This document shows, piece after piece, positions 9,142 to 14,580 of a DNA stretch of 52,471 nucleotides (within the stretch, counting starts at the first letter, position 1; every line of letters begins with the position of its first letter). Below the pieces are notes generated by a model. It was not told the origin of the DNA and searched no databases. It was given only the letters and a program-made list of their open reading frames with translations. This DNA is from Anaerolineales bacterium (GTDB taxonomy: Bacteria > Chloroflexota > Anaerolineae > Anaerolineales > Villigracilaceae), in assembly GCA_016934715.1 (NCBI GenBank), contig JAFGSI010000086.1:1-52471 (forward strand), read 5' to 3'. The position numbers and the translations under genes are program-made.

Positions 9142-10941
9142 CTATTTCCCCAACCGGGCCCGTTCTTCTGCAATGAGGCTCTCGTCGAGCTTCTTGAACA
9201 GTGGAGCAGGTTGGTTCAGCTTTGTGCCGGGCTGCAGGTCGCTGGGCTTCCACTGGCAAGGCAGGCGGCCCTCCTGCCCCCCACTGCGATACCGGAGCAC
9301 GGTGTGCTCGCCGAGCGAATCCTGCACCGGTTCAGTGACCTGCTTACCGAAGAGCGGGATCGCGTAGCTGAAGAAGGTGTGCAGGCGCTCGCAGGTGAAG
9401 GGCAGGAAGGGAGCCAACAGGAGCTTGAGGCTGTCGATCGCCTTGAGAGCAGTGTAGGTGCTGCGGGCGGCGGCATCCTTGTCGGTCTTGATCTGGAGCC
9501 AGGGGGCGCTGGTGTCGAGGTACTTGTTGACCTCGCTCGCCAGGCGCAGGGCCTCCTGCAGGGCCGCCCGCAGGCGGACCGCCTCGAGCTCCCGGCCGAC
9601 CGACTCGAAGCCGGCCTCGATGGCGGCCAGCAGGTCCAGGTCAGCCTGCGCGAGCCTCGCCGGGTCGATCGGGGGCACGTGTCCGTCCCAGTGCTTGTAG
9701 CAGAACGACAGGACCCGGTTGGCCAGGTTGCCCCAGGTGGCGACCAGTTCGTTGTTGTTGCGGGCGACGAACTCAGCCCAGTCCCAGTCGGTGTCGCGCA
9801 TTTCAGGCATGTTGATCGTCAGGTAGTAGCGCAGGGCATCCGGATCGTAGCGGGTCAGCGCATCACGGCCCCAGACAGCCCAGTTGCGCGAACCGGAGAT
9901 CTTCTGCCCTTCCAGGTTCATGAACTGGTTGGCCGGGACGTCAAAGGGAATCGTCAGCCGGCCCTCGTCCTCAGCGAAGATCTTCAGGAACTGCTCGCCG
10001 ACGCCCATCAGCTGGGCCGGCCAGAGCGAGGTGTGAAAGAAGATGTTGTCCTTGCCGATGAAGTAGAACTGGCGCGCCGCCGGGTTGACCCACCACTCGC
10101 GCCAGGCCTGGGGCTGGTCGGCGATCTGGGCCCACTCGATCGCTGCCGAGAGGTAGCCGATGACCGCCTCGAACCAGACATACAGGCACTTGCCATCCCA
10201 GCCCTCGACCGGCACCGGGATGCCCCAGTCGAGGTCGCGCGTGATCGGACGCGGCTTGAGGCCTTCGGCCTCGATCTTGCCGAGCGATTCACCCAGGACG
10301 GTCTCCCGCATCCGTTTGGCGCGTTCCTGCAGGAATTTCGTGACCGCCGGTTCCAGCTTGGAGAGGTCGAGATAGAAGTGCTCGGTCTCGCGCAGTTCGA
10401 GAGCCCCATCACCGGTCTTGGCATGTGGGTTGACCAGCTTCTCCGGCTCGAGCACGTTGCCGCAGTTGTCGCACTGATCTGAGCGGGCGCCCTCGGCGCC
10501 ACACAGGTAGCAGGTCCCTTCGACGTAGCGGTCGGGCAGGAAGCGCCTGGCATCCGGCGAGTACCACTGCATCGACTTCTGGGTGAACAGGAAGCCGTTC
10601 TCGCGCAGAGCCAGGAAGATCGCCTGGGAGACCTTGAAGTGGTTCTCGGTGTGGGTGGTGGTGAACAGGTCATAGGTGATCCCCATCTGCTGAAACAATT
10701 CGAGGAAGCCAGCGTGGTATTCCTTGTAGACCTGCTCGACCGGCTTGCCGAGGGCATCGGCCCGCAGCGTGACCGGGGTCCCGTGCGAGTCGGTCCCCGA
10801 GACCATCAGGACCTGGTTGCCCTTCAGGCGGTGGTAACGGGCAACGATATCCCCCGGCAGGTGCGAGCCGGTGAGGTTGCCGACGTGGATCTCGGCGTTG
10901 GCGTAGGGCCAGGCGATTGCGATGAGGATGTTTTCGGGCAT
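9142..10941 (-). CDS. metG: Methionyl-tRNA synthetase
   Basis: 599 aa. The ATG at 10941 has an AGAGAGG-type site upstream; the open frame reaches much further but loses homology at this Met. The class I catalytic core begins 'ILIAIAWPYANAEIHVGN', whose H-V-G-N is the HIGH signature (His19). A zinc knuckle (C-x2-C...C-x2-C, 'CYLCG' and 'CDNCGN') sits in the connective peptide. 'WDGKCLYVWFEAVIGY' is the methionine pocket region, 'FIGKDNIFFHTSLWPAQLMG' follows, and 'GQKISGSRNWAVWG' holds a divergent KMSKS loop (K-I-S-G-S). The helical anticodon-binding domain covers about 400-560. The C-terminal tRNA-binding OB domain of some MetRSs is absent. The gene charges tRNA-Met in the cytosol. Its leader contains a Met-rich mini-ORF and a terminator, described separately. 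Confidence 0.97.
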   Translation of the reverse strand: MPENILIAIAWPYANAEIHVGNLTGSHLPGDIVARYHRLKGNQVLMVSGTDSHGTPVTLRADALGKPVEQVYKEYHAGFLELFQQMGITYDLFTTTHTENHFKVSQAIFLALRENGFLFTQKSMQWYSPDARRFLPDRYVEGTCYLCGAEGARSDQCDNCGNVLEPEKLVNPHAKTGDGALELRETEHFYLDLSKLEPAVTKFLQERAKRMRETVLGESLGKIEAEGLKPRPITRDLDWGIPVPVEGWDGKCLYVWFEAVIGYLSAAIEWAQIADQPQAWREWWVNPAARQFYFIGKDNIFFHTSLWPAQLMGVGEQFLKIFAEDEGRLTIPFDVPANQFMNLEGQKISGSRNWAVWGRDALTRYDPDALRYYLTINMPEMRDTDWDWAEFVARNNNELVATWGNLANRVLSFCYKHWDGHVPPIDPARLAQADLDLLAAIEAGFESVGRELEAVRLRAALQEALRLASEVNKYLDTSAPWLQIKTDKDAAARSTYTALKAIDSLKLLLAPFLPFTCERLHTFFSYAIPLFGKQVTEPVQDSLGEHTVLRYRSGGQEGRLPCQWKPSDLQPGTKLNQPAPLFKKLDESLIAEERARLGK

Positions 10942-11110
10942 AAGAGGCCTCTCTTTCAGGGGGTCATTCCCTGCGCGGAACCCGCAGACGCCCTCCACCA
11001 CAGGAGCTCGTTGCGCCTGGAAAGGGCCGCCGGAGGGTTCCATGGAGGTGCAGCAGCGCCCCATCGTCTGCGCTGCGCTCCGGGCTCCTCGCAAGGGCAA
11101 TGGAATAGCA
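10942..11110 (-). other. metG leader, segment between terminator and start codon
   Basis: 169 nt of GC-rich RNA. A 7-bp hairpin can form with arms at 11053-11059 and 11070-11076 (GCAGCGC/GCGCTGC). A second small stem (CTGCG/CGCAG) lies at about 10971-10987. Nothing matches the T-box signature AGGGUGGNACCGCG. Confidence 0.35.
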
Positions 11111-11140
11111 AACAAAAAGGCCGCCCGCGACCGGACAGCC
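11111..11140 (-). terminator. Attenuator terminator in the metG leader
   Basis: On the minus strand GGCTGTCC (11140-11133), loop GGTCGC, GGGCGGCC (11126-11119) form 8 pairs, two of them G-U, followed by TTTTTGTT (11118-11111). It lies 22 nt after the leader-peptide stop codon and 170 nt before metG. The gene on the other side is divergent, so no upstream gene needs this terminator. Confidence 0.75.
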
Positions 11141-11190
11141 CGTGAAGAGTTGCGAAAACCTGCTAGCGCAATCCTACCGTCGCTGCCCGG
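11131..11190 (-). promoter_or_regulatory. Predicted antiterminator helix of the metG attenuator
   Basis: CCGGGCAGC (11190-11182, codons 27-30 of the mini-ORF) can pair over 9 consecutive positions, one of them G-U, with GCUGUCCGG (11139-11131). The latter contains the 5' arm and start of the loop of the terminator, so the two structures exclude each other. A ribosome that finishes the mini-ORF would sit on or near the first strand and favour termination. One stalled at the AUG run would leave it free and favour read-through. The pairing was derived by eye; no folding energy was calculated. Confidence 0.55.
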
Positions 11191-11270
11191 GCGCGGCCCG
11201 ACATGTCCATCGCCATCATCGCCATGGCCATGGTCACCATCAGGGCAGACAGAAGGATCGTGACATGCAT
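11163..11270 (-). CDS. Met-rich leader peptide, candidate attenuator of metG
   Basis: 35 codons, ATG at 11270-11268, TAG at 11165-11163, with an in-frame stop five codons upstream that closes the frame. The peptide begins MHVTILLSAL. From codon 11 to 23 it runs M-V-T-M-A-M-A-M-M-A-M-D-M: 7 Met in 13 codons, 8 Met in all. The last 12 codons contain no Met and hold the antiterminator strand. No Shine-Dalgarno precedes the ATG, but a -10 box ends 6 nt before it, so translation is probably leaderless. The position, a run of cognate codons, a stop near a U-tailed hairpin and a MetRS gene downstream follow the logic of trpL or pheM leaders. The peptide itself is unlikely to have a cellular role. 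It is too short for conventional gene callers. Confidence 0.7.
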   Translation of the reverse strand: MHVTILLSALMVTMAMAMMAMDMSGRARAATVGLR

Positions 11271-11276
11271 GGCCGT

Positions 11277-11305
11277 AGTGTACTATGTCCTGGGCCAGGT
11301 TGCAA
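11277..11305 (-). promoter_or_regulatory. Promoter of the metG leader transcript
   Basis: On the minus strand TTGCAA (11305-11300), exactly 17 bp, then TACACT (11282-11277); each hexamer matches consensus at 4 of 6 positions. Transcription would begin at about 11270, the A of the leader-peptide ATG. Confidence 0.55.
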
Positions 11306-11366
11306 GGGGGCATTTTGCTCAACCGGACTGCAATCCAAATATCACTTCCTGCGAACAAAATGGATG

Positions 11367-11372
11367 TACAAT
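11367..11372 (+). promoter_or_regulatory. -10 box of the ABC exporter gene
   Basis: TACAAT, 19 nt before the ATG at 11392. The short leader holds CCGAGG as a weak ribosome-binding site. No good -35. Confidence 0.4.
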
Positions 11373-11391
11373 CACCTCCGAGGCGCGCCCT

Positions 11392-13122
11392 ATGAAACCC
11401 TTCCAACTGATCTTCAACTACGCCCGGCGCTATACCGGGCCGCTGATCGTCACGGCGATCAGCATGCTGGCCCTGGTCGGCGTGCAGCTGATCGTCCCCT
11501 GGATGGTGAAGTTGCTGGTGGCCGAGGTCACCGCCCCCGGGGCCTCGCTGGCCGACATGAACACCATCAACCGGCTGACCACCATTGTGCTGGTCGTCTT
11601 CCTGGCGCGCGCCGGGCTGCAGTTCGTGCGTTCCTATGTGGCCCACGTCGCCGGCTGGGGCGTGGTGGCCGATGTGCGCAAGTACATTTACGACCACATG
11701 CAGCGCCTGTCGCTGCGCTTCTACGAGGACAAGCAGGTCGGGCAGTTGATGTCCAATGTGGTCAACGACACCGACCTGTTCGAGCAGCTCATCGCTCACG
11801 CCATCCCGGACGTGGTCGTCAACCTGGTGACCCTGATCGGCGTGACAGCGGTCCTGCTCAGCCTGAACTGGCAGCTGACCCTGCTGAGCACGATCCCCAT
11901 CCCGCTGGTCTTCCTCTCGCTGCGGATCTACGCCAAGTACGTCCGGCCTGCCTTCCGCAACCGCCAGAAGGAACTCGGCAACCTGAACGCTCTGCTCAAC
12001 GACAACCTGTCGGGGATCCGCGAGATCAAGGCCTTCACCCGCGAAGAGGACGAGGCCGAACGGGTCCACAAGGGCATCGACAACTACCGCAGTTCGCTGC
12101 TGCGGGCATTACGCCTGATGGCCACCTTCCAGCCGTTCGTCGAGTTCACCTCCTCGATCGGGACCCTGATCGTGATCTTCTTCGGCGGGCGCCTGGCCCT
12201 GCAAGGAACCCTGCCGGTGGCCGACCTGGTGGCCTTCTTCCTGTACCTGGAAAGCTTCTACGCCCCGGTGCGCAGTCTCTCCGGGGCCTGGGAGGCGGTC
12301 CAGTCGTCGCTGGCCGGCGCGGACCGGGTGTCCGGTCTGCTGGCCGAGCCGCGCGAGCCGCAGAACGTCCAGGGGGCGACACCAGCCCGGGGCCCGGTGC
12401 AGGGCGAGATCGTCTTCCAGGACGTGCACTTCGAGTACCTCCCCGGCGTGCCGGTGCTCAAGGACATCAGCCTGGTGGTACCAGCCCGCTCGGTGGCTGC
12501 CCTGGTCGGCCCAACCGGGGTCGGCAAGAGCACCCTGGTCAGCCTGATCCCGCGCTTCTACGATGTGACCGCCGGGAAGATCCTGCTCGACGGGCGCGAC
12601 CTGCGCGATTACACCCTCGACAGCCTGCGCGGGCAGATCAGCATCGTTCTGCAGGACGTGTTCCTGTTCTATGGGACGGTGCGCGACAACCTGCTCTTCG
12701 GACGCCCCGACGCCGACGAGGCCGAGATGGTCGCCGCCGCCCGGGCCGCCAACGCCCACGATTTCATCGCCGACCTGCCGCAGGGCTACGACACCCTGAT
12801 CGGCGAACGGGGCGTCAAGCTCTCGGGTGGGCAGAAACAGCGCCTGTCAATCGCCCGGGCGATCCTCAAGGACGCCCCGATCCTGATCCTGGACGAGGCC
12901 ACCTCGTCGGTCGACACCGAGACCGAGCAGCTGATCCAGCAGGCGCTCGAAAGATTGATGCAAGGCCGCACGACGATCGTCATCGCCCACCGCCTGAGCA
13001 CCATCCGGGGCGCCGACCAGATCGTGGTCCTGGAGGAGAATAAGATCCGCGAGATGGGGACCCATGAGAAGTTAATGAAGGACAACGGTCTGTACAAACG
13101 GCTGTACACGGTCCAGAAGTAG
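11392..13122 (+). CDS. ABC transporter, fused permease and ATPase (exporter half-transporter)
   Basis: 576 aa, the usual size of an MsbA/LmrA-type half-transporter. The ATG at 11392 is chosen because the upstream extension is antisense to the metG leader. The membrane domain covers about 15-310 with six helices and the conserved 'YIYDHMQRLSLRFYEDKQVG' coupling region. The nucleotide-binding domain has Walker A GPTGVGKST, Q-loop 'IVLQDVFLFYGTVRDNL', signature LSGGQ, Walker B 'ILILDEATS' and switch His in 'IAHR'. It probably works as a homodimer in the cytoplasmic membrane because no second half-transporter is adjacent. The substrate (lipid, drug or peptide) cannot be told from sequence. It is monocistronic, divergent from metG. 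Confidence 0.93.
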   Translation: MKPFQLIFNYARRYTGPLIVTAISMLALVGVQLIVPWMVKLLVAEVTAPGASLADMNTINRLTTIVLVVFLARAGLQFVRSYVAHVAGWGVVADVRKYIYDHMQRLSLRFYEDKQVGQLMSNVVNDTDLFEQLIAHAIPDVVVNLVTLIGVTAVLLSLNWQLTLLSTIPIPLVFLSLRIYAKYVRPAFRNRQKELGNLNALLNDNLSGIREIKAFTREEDEAERVHKGIDNYRSSLLRALRLMATFQPFVEFTSSIGTLIVIFFGGRLALQGTLPVADLVAFFLYLESFYAPVRSLSGAWEAVQSSLAGADRVSGLLAEPREPQNVQGATPARGPVQGEIVFQDVHFEYLPGVPVLKDISLVVPARSVAALVGPTGVGKSTLVSLIPRFYDVTAGKILLDGRDLRDYTLDSLRGQISIVLQDVFLFYGTVRDNLLFGRPDADEAEMVAAARAANAHDFIADLPQGYDTLIGERGVKLSGGQKQRLSIARAILKDAPILILDEATSSVDTETEQLIQQALERLMQGRTTIVIAHRLSTIRGADQIVVLEENKIREMGTHEKLMKDNGLYKRLYTVQK

Positions 13123-13401: not shown

Positions 13402-14580
13402 TTAAAGGTATTCTTTGAGCTGCCGCGCCCGCCGCGGGTGGCGCAGGCGGCGCAGAGCCTTGCCCTCGATCTGGCGGATGCGCTCGCGCGTCAGGCCGAA
13501 CTTGGCGCCGACCTCCTCCAGGGTATAGGAGGTGCCATCGTCCAGACCGAAGCGCAGGCGCAGGACGCGCGCCTCGCGCGGCGAGAGCGTCCCCAGGACC
13601 TCTTCGATCTTTTCCTTGAGCATCGACTGGTAGGCACTCTGCATCGGGGTCGGGCTGAACTCGTCCTCGATGAACTGGCCCAGTTCAGACTCTTCGTCGT
13701 CGCCGACCGGGCTCTCCAGCGAGAGCGGCAGCCAGGAGACCTTGAGGATCCATTCGACCTTGGCCAGGTCGAGGTCGAGCTCCTGGGCAAGTTCGACCGG
13801 CTTGGGGACCCGCCCCAGGCGCTGTTCCAGGTCGTGGGTGGCCTTGTACATGTGGCGGATGCGATCGCTCATGTGGACCGGGATGCGGATTGTGCGGGCC
13901 TGGTCGGCGATCGCCCGGGTGATCGTCTGGCGGATCCACCAGGTAGCATACGTCGAGAAGCGGAAGCCCTTGTGGACATCATACTTCTCGACGGCTTTCA
14001 TCAATCCCAGGTTGCCCTCCTGGATCAGATCCAGGAATGGCACCCCCCGCCCCATGTAGCGCTTGGCGATGCTGACCACCAGGCGGGTGTTGGCCTTGAT
14101 CAGGTGGTCGCGCGCCAGCAGGCCATCCTGGTAGAGGGCCTCCAGCCGGCCGCGCTCCAGGGCCCGGGTCCGGCCAGGCATGCGGGTCAGCTGCGAGCGA
14201 GCCTGGCGGCCCTCCTCGATGCGGATCGCAAGTTCGTACTCCAGATCGACCGAGAGCAGCGGGACGCGCGACATCTCCTTGAGGTAGAGGCCGACCGTAT
14301 CATCACTGACCAGACTGGTGTTGCTGGGATCCAGCCAGGGTTCGGCCTCGGGTCCGGTCAATTCCTCGCCGGGAGCCATATCGAAGTTCTCGGGATCGAC
14401 GATGTCCACGCCGCGGTGGCGCAAAGCCAGCATGATGACCGACATGCGCTCGACATCGTCGCCAACGTCTGGATAAAGGTCGAGCAGGTCATCGGTGGTC
14501 AGGTAGCCCTGGACGGAGGCTTTCTCCAGAAGCTGGCTGAAGATTTCCTTGTGTTTCCGCCGCCGATCGGGATGCGTCAT
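13402..14580 (-). CDS. rpoD: Primary-type RNA polymerase sigma factor (RpoD/SigA)
   Basis: 392 aa. Region 1.1 is short; region 1.2 reads 'DDTVGLYLKEMSRVPLL'. Region 2 has 'LIKANTRLVVSIAKRYMGRG', 'FLDLIQEGNLGLMKAVEKYD' (core binding) and 'GFRFSTYATWWIRQTITRAI' (-10 melting and recognition). Region 3 begins 'RTIRIPVHMSDRI', and region 4.2 reads 'EEVGAKFGLTRERIRQIEGK' (-35 helix-turn-helix). All blocks are those of group 1/2 sigma-70 proteins, so it should recognise TTGACA/TATAAT promoters such as those at 15144 and 15229. Whether it is the only housekeeping sigma factor cannot be decided here, since Chloroflexota often have several RpoD paralogues. It is transcribed after the DUF177 gene, 26 bp apart. 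Confidence 0.93.
   Translation of the reverse strand: MTHPDRRRKHKEIFSQLLEKASVQGYLTTDDLLDLYPDVGDDVERMSVIMLALRHRGVDIVDPENFDMAPGEELTGPEAEPWLDPSNTSLVSDDTVGLYLKEMSRVPLLSVDLEYELAIRIEEGRQARSQLTRMPGRTRALERGRLEALYQDGLLARDHLIKANTRLVVSIAKRYMGRGVPFLDLIQEGNLGLMKAVEKYDVHKGFRFSTYATWWIRQTITRAIADQARTIRIPVHMSDRIRHMYKATHDLEQRLGRVPKPVELAQELDLDLAKVEWILKVSWLPLSLESPVGDDEESELGQFIEDEFSPTPMQSAYQSMLKEKIEEVLGTLSPREARVLRLRFGLDDGTSYTLEEVGAKFGLTRERIRQIEGKALRRLRHPRRARQLKEYL

Follow-up and report, generated by a model that had tools for sequence, protein, structure and literature searches.

The window, which is the whole stretch of 52,471 nucleotides analysed here, carries metG, the gene proposed to be controlled, on the minus strand (9142–10941). 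Its product matches the methionyl-tRNA synthetase model TIGR00398 with 447.6 bits (cut-off 336.35). The gene on the other side, at about 11392–13122 on the plus strand, is a divergent MsbA-like ABC transporter whose best models score below their own cut-offs. Because this neighbour is divergent, the terminator described below ends no upstream gene. An RpoD-like gene lies at 13402–14580 (minus strand), with the ABC transporter gene between it and metG, and the neighbourhood is thus rearranged. In relatives L018 and L019, metG seems by eye to follow a sigma-70 (RpoD-like) gene directly, with both on one strand.

A leader-peptide ORF of 35 codons (11163–11270, minus strand) precedes metG and encodes MHVTILLSALMVTMAMAMMAMDMSGRARAATVGLR followed by the stop codon. 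It was taken from the ORF list and the sequence and was compared with relatives. The putative regulatory run at 11202–11240 (minus strand), recognised in the sequence and by AUG enrichment in relatives, holds seven AUG in codons 11–23. An intrinsic terminator occupies 11111–11141 (minus strand) and was identified by a terminator scan and by pattern searches. It is composed of a 10-pair stem (11141–11118) followed by TTTTTGT, with the tail TTTTTGTTT, and begins 21 nucleotides past the ORF stop. The gap between terminator and metG is approximately 170 nucleotides. Two further segments were defined by complementarity and by the permutation test given below. Region 2, the candidate antiterminator strand CCGGGCAGC, lies within the ORF at 11182–11190 (minus strand). 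It is complementary, including one G-U pair, to GCUGUCCGG in region 3 (11131–11139, minus strand), which forms the 5’ part of the terminator and would be the alternative partner of region 2. The preliminary description had named the Met-rich ORF with its seven AUG, a U-tailed terminator 22 nucleotides after the stop, the 9-bp alternative helix, metG as the next gene and a divergent gene on the other side. Each of these was recovered, with the terminator spacing now set at 21 nucleotides.

A promoter-like pair absent from that description can be read upstream of the ORF. It consists of a -35-like hexamer TTGCAA (11300–11305, minus strand) and, 17 nucleotides later, a -10-like hexamer TACACT (11277–11282, minus strand) that ends 6 nucleotides before the leader ATG at 11270. 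This spacing suggests a leaderless start. The pair (11305–11277) agrees at 8 of 12 positions, and a stricter scan that needs 9 of 12 lists no promoter. Many relatives have TTGACA at the same place as the TTGCAA of the window.

The leader stands out within its own genome. A scan of 427 kb of the approximately 4.1 Mb, window included, returned nine short ORFs (up to 90 codons) that have at least three AUG in 15 codons and a terminator after them. The metG leader is the only one of the nine with more than three AUG (seven); the other eight have exactly three. A search of the window with the terminator pattern GGCTGTCCN(2-14)GGRCRGYY gave one match against 0.01 expected. In two genomes of the same genus (G001 and G002), a 460-nucleotide query finds a match only over 11306–11111 (75% identity) and 11296–11111 (73% identity), respectively. 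This conserved block, from promoter to terminator end, is to judge by its limits the putative element itself. The gap between terminator and metG (11110–10942, minus strand) is unmatched in both genomes.

A wider regulon of such Met leaders was considered and rejected on the 427 kb scanned, although a looser leader may lie elsewhere in the genome. The pattern ATGNNNATGNNNATGNNNATG gave three matches against one in a reversed control. A script found no leader having a terminator and at least three AUG at any of the three loci, and long ORFs fill their surroundings.

Conservation was assessed in the sequence before metG of 200 genomes, one region from each, a set that is not random and favours genomes with a similar MetRS. 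It holds 57 regions from the family of the window (f1), 79 from other families of the order, 47 from other orders of the class, and 17 from other classes. The set was drawn from searches of 61, 251, 101, and 101 genomes. All 59 of the 59 matching genomes of the first search were taken, and chosen matches, mostly the best-scoring, were taken from the later three. A leader was scored if, in the 450 nucleotides before metG, 15 codons of an ORF hold at least three AUG, not counting the start, and a terminator follows within 110 nucleotides; three regions are shorter than 450 nucleotides (L119 with 93, L178 with 370, and L210 with 193).

Such an ORF with its terminator is present in 96 of the 200 regions when the codon is AUG, and in 18 for the next best of the 61 sense codons, CGC. 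At a level of at least four per 15 codons, AUG gives 73 regions against 7 for the next codon. The AUG triplets are locked to the reading frame, with 96 genomes scoring in frame but 6 and 3 when the ORFs are read one or two bases out, which indicates that they are codons. The leader is present in 51 of 57 regions in f1, 8 of 9 in family f8, 14 of 21 in f14, 4 of 9 in f9, and 3 of 18 in f13. Over the whole order it is present in 90 of 136 regions, and in other orders of the class in 6 of 47. Below the threshold are 6 of 57 regions in f1, 15 of 18 in f13, 41 of the 47 from the other orders, and all 17 from outside the class. The exceptions in f1 include L014 (leader further upstream), L028 (two AUG), and L119 (93 nucleotides of upstream sequence). 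Ten of the 104 regions below the threshold were viewed out to 900 nucleotides; leaders were seen in L014 and L030 and kept out of the counts. At a level of at least two, 12 regions of the other-order group score for AUG and 6 for the runner-up codon, and the group may hold members with fewer AUG codons, a weak indication.

The distance from stop codon to terminator is narrow, with a median of 22 nucleotides and an interquartile range of 20–26 (n = 96). The peptides themselves vary widely apart from their Met frequency, as in MNFKPAFPMVPMTMAMRMEMSCRTWRAR and MFNLLPVDNLMRMSAMMDMMRRACSPAAFGMEKQG. A further 39 named loci come partly from the same genomes as the set of 200. Of these, 35 were scanned (L099 and L107–L109 were left out), and 30 have an ORF with at least three AUG in 15 codons and a terminator within 500 nucleotides of metG. 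The 30 carriers are MAGs of Anaerolineales, Anaerolineae, and other Chloroflexota. No such leader was found in the 500 nucleotides before metG of Longilinea arvoryzae KOME-1 (Anaerolineaceae). The preliminary description had made its case depend on the AUG run, stop codon, and terminator being kept in close relatives and on coding constraint in the run. Most of the f1 genomes examined keep the first three, as do many genomes across the order, and the frame lock bears out the constraint.

Several loci depart from the common form. L016 (genome G005) retains the promoter and the terminator about 200–300 nucleotides before metG. The short ORF between them, MDSCSCAWTRNSRPPM, has no Met run by eye, and this leader is possibly decayed or re-tuned. 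A second leader type is present at L012, L013, L032, and L033 and at the named loci L073, L075, L080, L086, and L102. Its ORF ends in a QFSAR-, QFCAR-, or QFKAR-like sequence, its AUG codons still stand before metG, and its terminator is of the TGCTGGC...GCCAGCA or GCCGGCA type. In other orders of the class, L191, L192, L194, L199, L201, L205, and L206 have short ORFs with 2–4 AUG before metG and a CCGCCAGCC/CCGCCGGCC-type terminator. These may represent an earlier version of the device.

The end of the leader ORF is complementary to the 5’ arm of the terminator. The segment is CCGGGCAGC in the window and GGACAGCC in many f14 leaders, and most f8 leaders have GGCAGCC at the ORF end with the arm GGCUGCC. 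The pairing of each ORF end with its own arm was compared with that of swapped partners, the register being re-optimised for each swap. This permutation test covers the 75 leaders with a GGCTG-type arm; the other 21 of the 96 have a terminator without a GGCTG or GAGCTG core. The score for own partners is 680.2 and that for permuted partners 642.3 (sd 5.5), and none of 1000 permutations reaches the observed value. The excess is also found in f1 (46 leaders, 0 of 1000) and f8 (8 leaders, 9 of 1000). It is not significant in f14, where 160 of 1000 permutations reach the observed score. The covarying antiterminator that had been predicted for relatives is thus borne out overall and in f1 and f8, and not in f14. 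An energy swap between families gave a median percentile of 0.33 overall and was favourable for f8, f11, and f14.

MFE folds of the window RNA change with the position of the ribosome. A stall in the middle of the run or at the last Met gives the antiterminator, and a ribosome at the stop codon, or none, gives the terminator. At equilibrium over the 96 leaders, a mid-run stall gives the antiterminator in 24 and the terminator in 70, and a stall at the last Met gives the antiterminator in 11 and the terminator in 83. Since the terminator wins at equilibrium in most relatives, a switch there would have to be kinetic and occur during transcription. While the 3’ arm is not yet made, a stalled ribosome leaves at least 7 nucleotides of the 5’ arm paired to upstream sequence in 82 of 96 leaders, and a ribosome at the stop does so in 11 of 96. 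The gain in pairing energy is modest, with a median of -7.4 kcal/mol in the leaders against a mean of -5.1 kcal/mol in shuffled sequences. The shuffle p is at most 0.1 in 44% of leaders and 0.15 for the leader of the window, and the six other-order leaders do no better than their shuffles (mean z +0.75). In 7 of 14 f14 leaders and 7 of 8 f8 leaders, region 2 lies about 25–34 nucleotides upstream of the last base of the stop codon. At that distance it would escape masking by a ribosome on the stop, so translation timing rather than masking would have to matter in those leaders. The folding models make a switch by ribosome position plausible.

The commonest terminator type of the element is also specific to metG in the genomes searched. 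The pattern GGCTGTCCN(2-14)GGRCRGYYTTTTT, which covers this type, was searched in 37 whole genomes. It is present in 14 of them, and by coordinates all matches lie just upstream of metG. A reversed-pattern control gave no matches in the 37 genomes.

Sequence comparison and folding together make it highly likely that the leader places metG under ribosome-mediated transcription attenuation, with charged elongator Met-tRNA as the signal sensed. The same reading had been put forward in the preliminary description. It is very probably right, given the conservation, the frame lock, the overall pairing excess, and a terminator type found only at metG in 37 genomes. Transcription would start at or beside the leader AUG, as the promoter position suggests, and a ribosome would trail the polymerase through the run of Met codons. 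With plentiful Met-tRNA, the ribosome would reach the stop codon, the terminator (11141–11118) would form, and metG would not be reached. With scarce Met-tRNA, the ribosome would stall in the AUG run. Region 2 (11190–11182) would then be free to pair with the emerging 5’ arm of the terminator, termination would be pre-empted, and metG would be transcribed. The translation, stalling, termination, and read-through in this scheme, like the direction of its response, are inferred. A shortage of Met-tRNA would be expected to hit initiation too, which would run counter to the switch.

The start of the leader bears on what the AUG codons do. Start codons were fixed without promoter information, by taking the in-frame ATG that lies furthest upstream at no more than 41 codons from the stop, and a promoter was counted at 8 or more of 12 positions. 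A promoter whose -10 hexamer ends 6–8 nucleotides before this ATG is present in 48 of 96 leaders, against 0.5 expected from shuffles and 1 at a control distance. The same spacing is present in 37 of 51 f1 leaders (0.3 expected). It was found in none of the 22 leaders of f8 and f14, where the promoters found lie 9–34 nucleotides before the start. Transcription starts about 7 nucleotides after the -10 hexamer. The spacing in f1 would therefore place the 5’ end of the mRNA at the AUG or within a few nucleotides of it, and the f1 leader mRNA, judged by promoter position, is probably leaderless. A leaderless start would probably couple initiation and elongation on one amino acid. It is possible, though rather unlikely, that such an mRNA reads both pools charged by the one enzyme, the 5’ AUG reading fMet-tRNA and the internal run reading elongator Met-tRNA. 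If so, metG would answer to the balance of fMet-tRNA and elongator Met-tRNA, in a device evolved in a Chloroflexota lineage that keeps T-boxes at other synthetase genes.

The AUG cluster could also be a set of multiple in-frame starts that senses initiator fMet-tRNA or ribosome loading. Initiation at a 5’-terminal AUG depends strongly on the initiator tRNA, and the first AUG stands at the likely 5’ end in the 37 f1 leaders just given. The f8 and f14 leaders, however, retain their AUG runs without the leaderless layout, and the run of the window, at codons 11–23, stands shortly before region 2 and away from the 5’ end. A role as multiple starts is improbable on this evidence.

Next to be weighed is a functional small Met-rich protein, with the hairpin as its mere terminator and the metG promoter further down. 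The ORF has what such a gene needs (a promoter-like pair, a start, a stop, and a terminator), and in the window its terminator stands some 170 nucleotides from metG. Elsewhere the distance from the leader stop to metG falls as low as 62 nucleotides, with several of 70–77, which leaves little room for a separate promoter past the terminator. A functional protein also sits badly with peptides that vary widely save in Met frequency, with peptide-coding ends complementary to the terminator beyond permuted partners, and with a tested terminator type found only at metG in 37 genomes. This explanation is very improbable.

Leader peptides that stall by their own sequence are known, and nascent-chain arrest could let the peptide itself sense a ligand in the ribosome tunnel, be it methionine, SAM, or some other. 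Strings like Met-Val-Thr-Met-Thr-Met-Ala-Met recur in f1. Arrest peptides are usually sequence-specific, and between families the residues between the Met codons, the number of Met, and their spacing all differ widely, so that nascent-chain arrest has little probability as compared with the attenuator that senses Met-tRNA through its codons.

An RNA receptor at the same place was also considered. At gathering score, no Rfam 15 family matches the window. A relaxed search (E up to 10) of 10850–11450 gives six weak matches, none of a T-box or SAM family. T-box RF00230 and SAM RF00162 thus have no match in the window at gathering score or over 10850–11450 at relaxed threshold, and a T-box or SAM riboswitch at metG was rejected on that ground. 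The Rfam amino-acid leader families likewise have no covariance-model match in the window, which lowers membership in those families and not the mechanism. Twenty other metG loci, most of them chosen for the lack of a leader in the scan, gave no T-box or riboswitch match at gathering score or at E 0.01, the second search being made because true T-boxes in this lineage can score below gathering.

T-box (RF00230) matches are common in the same genomes, being present in 37 of 37 at E 0.001 and over the cut-off in 28. The own genome of the window has eight, two of them over the cut-off. Two matches below the cut-off of 93 lie directly before synthetase genes. One is before ileS (L265:16365–16617, 89.9 bits, E 1.9e-18), and the other is before valS (L269:6129–6385, 70.2 bits, E 2.2e-13). 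The genes match TIGR00392 with 963.6 bits and TIGR00422 with 1060.7 bits, respectively. With T-box matches before ileS and valS, metG uses another device and departs from the habit of the lineage. The same genome has three SAM riboswitches over the cut-off. An FMN riboswitch, also over the cut-off, is present at L269:11290–11464 (80.9 bits). Control of the terminator by a metabolite- or tRNA-binding RNA (a T-box, a SAM riboswitch, or another aptamer) with an incidental ORF is the least probable explanation, since for all the T-box matches and SAM riboswitches of the lineage no T-box or SAM match is found in the window or at the 20 other metG loci, and no aptamer requires frame-locked AUG codons.

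Leader-peptide attenuation is textbook biology, and in E. coli it controls the synthetase gene pheST. The attenuators of the trp, his, leu, thr, phe, and ilv operons in Proteobacteria and Actinobacteria resemble the metG leader in layout. Regulatory codons are clustered in a short ORF, the stop of that ORF is followed by a terminator that excludes and is excluded by an antiterminator, and the gene behind them serves the metabolism of the amino acid concerned. The metG leader differs from them in its codon (AUG), its target (metG), and its phylum (Chloroflexota). As given in passages of PMC3766115, the Rfam attenuators are those of His, Leu, Thr, and Trp, and those of Ile/Val and Phe are otherwise characterised. 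Passages of PMC4833913 describe leader-peptide attenuators for amino acids other than Met. Synthetase genes are among the known targets, with attenuators at leuS and trpS in Streptomyces (passages of PMC1262725) and at the hisS paralogs and hisZ in bacilli (passages of PMC2965389). These and pheST resemble the metG leader in that a synthetase gene stands under the codons of its own amino acid. For the methionine operons of Actinobacteria, passages of PMC1262725 report no conserved RNA structure, and the word “methionyl” has no occurrence in the main texts of PMC2965389 and PMC1262725.

The closest parallel to the leaderless start is the trpL attenuator of Sinorhizobium meliloti (rnTrpL/peTrpL), whose transcript opens on the leader ATG itself according to passages of PMC7298713. 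The metG leader would start in the same way. The S. meliloti system differs in that it answers to tryptophan, belongs to an alphaproteobacterium, and has a small RNA and a peptide that, in the same passages, also act in trans. T-box leaders address the same question as the metG leader, since they too terminate or read through according to whether the cognate tRNA is charged. They differ in their RNA, and RF00230 has no match at the metG leader even at relaxed threshold. No Met-codon leader or metG attenuator was found in the literature searched, as far as its available text extends; outside it is the 2010 work of Lopatovskaya and colleagues, reportedly a survey of attenuators of synthetase operons.

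The metG element raises the question of a ribosome-based sensor for the amino acid that also starts translation, and its leader family is large enough for experimental test. Standing among T-boxes at other synthetase genes, it bears on why lineages swap sensing systems. As far as the searches reach, the metG leader differs from the attenuators described within that literature in three respects, namely the codon, the target gene, and the phylum.
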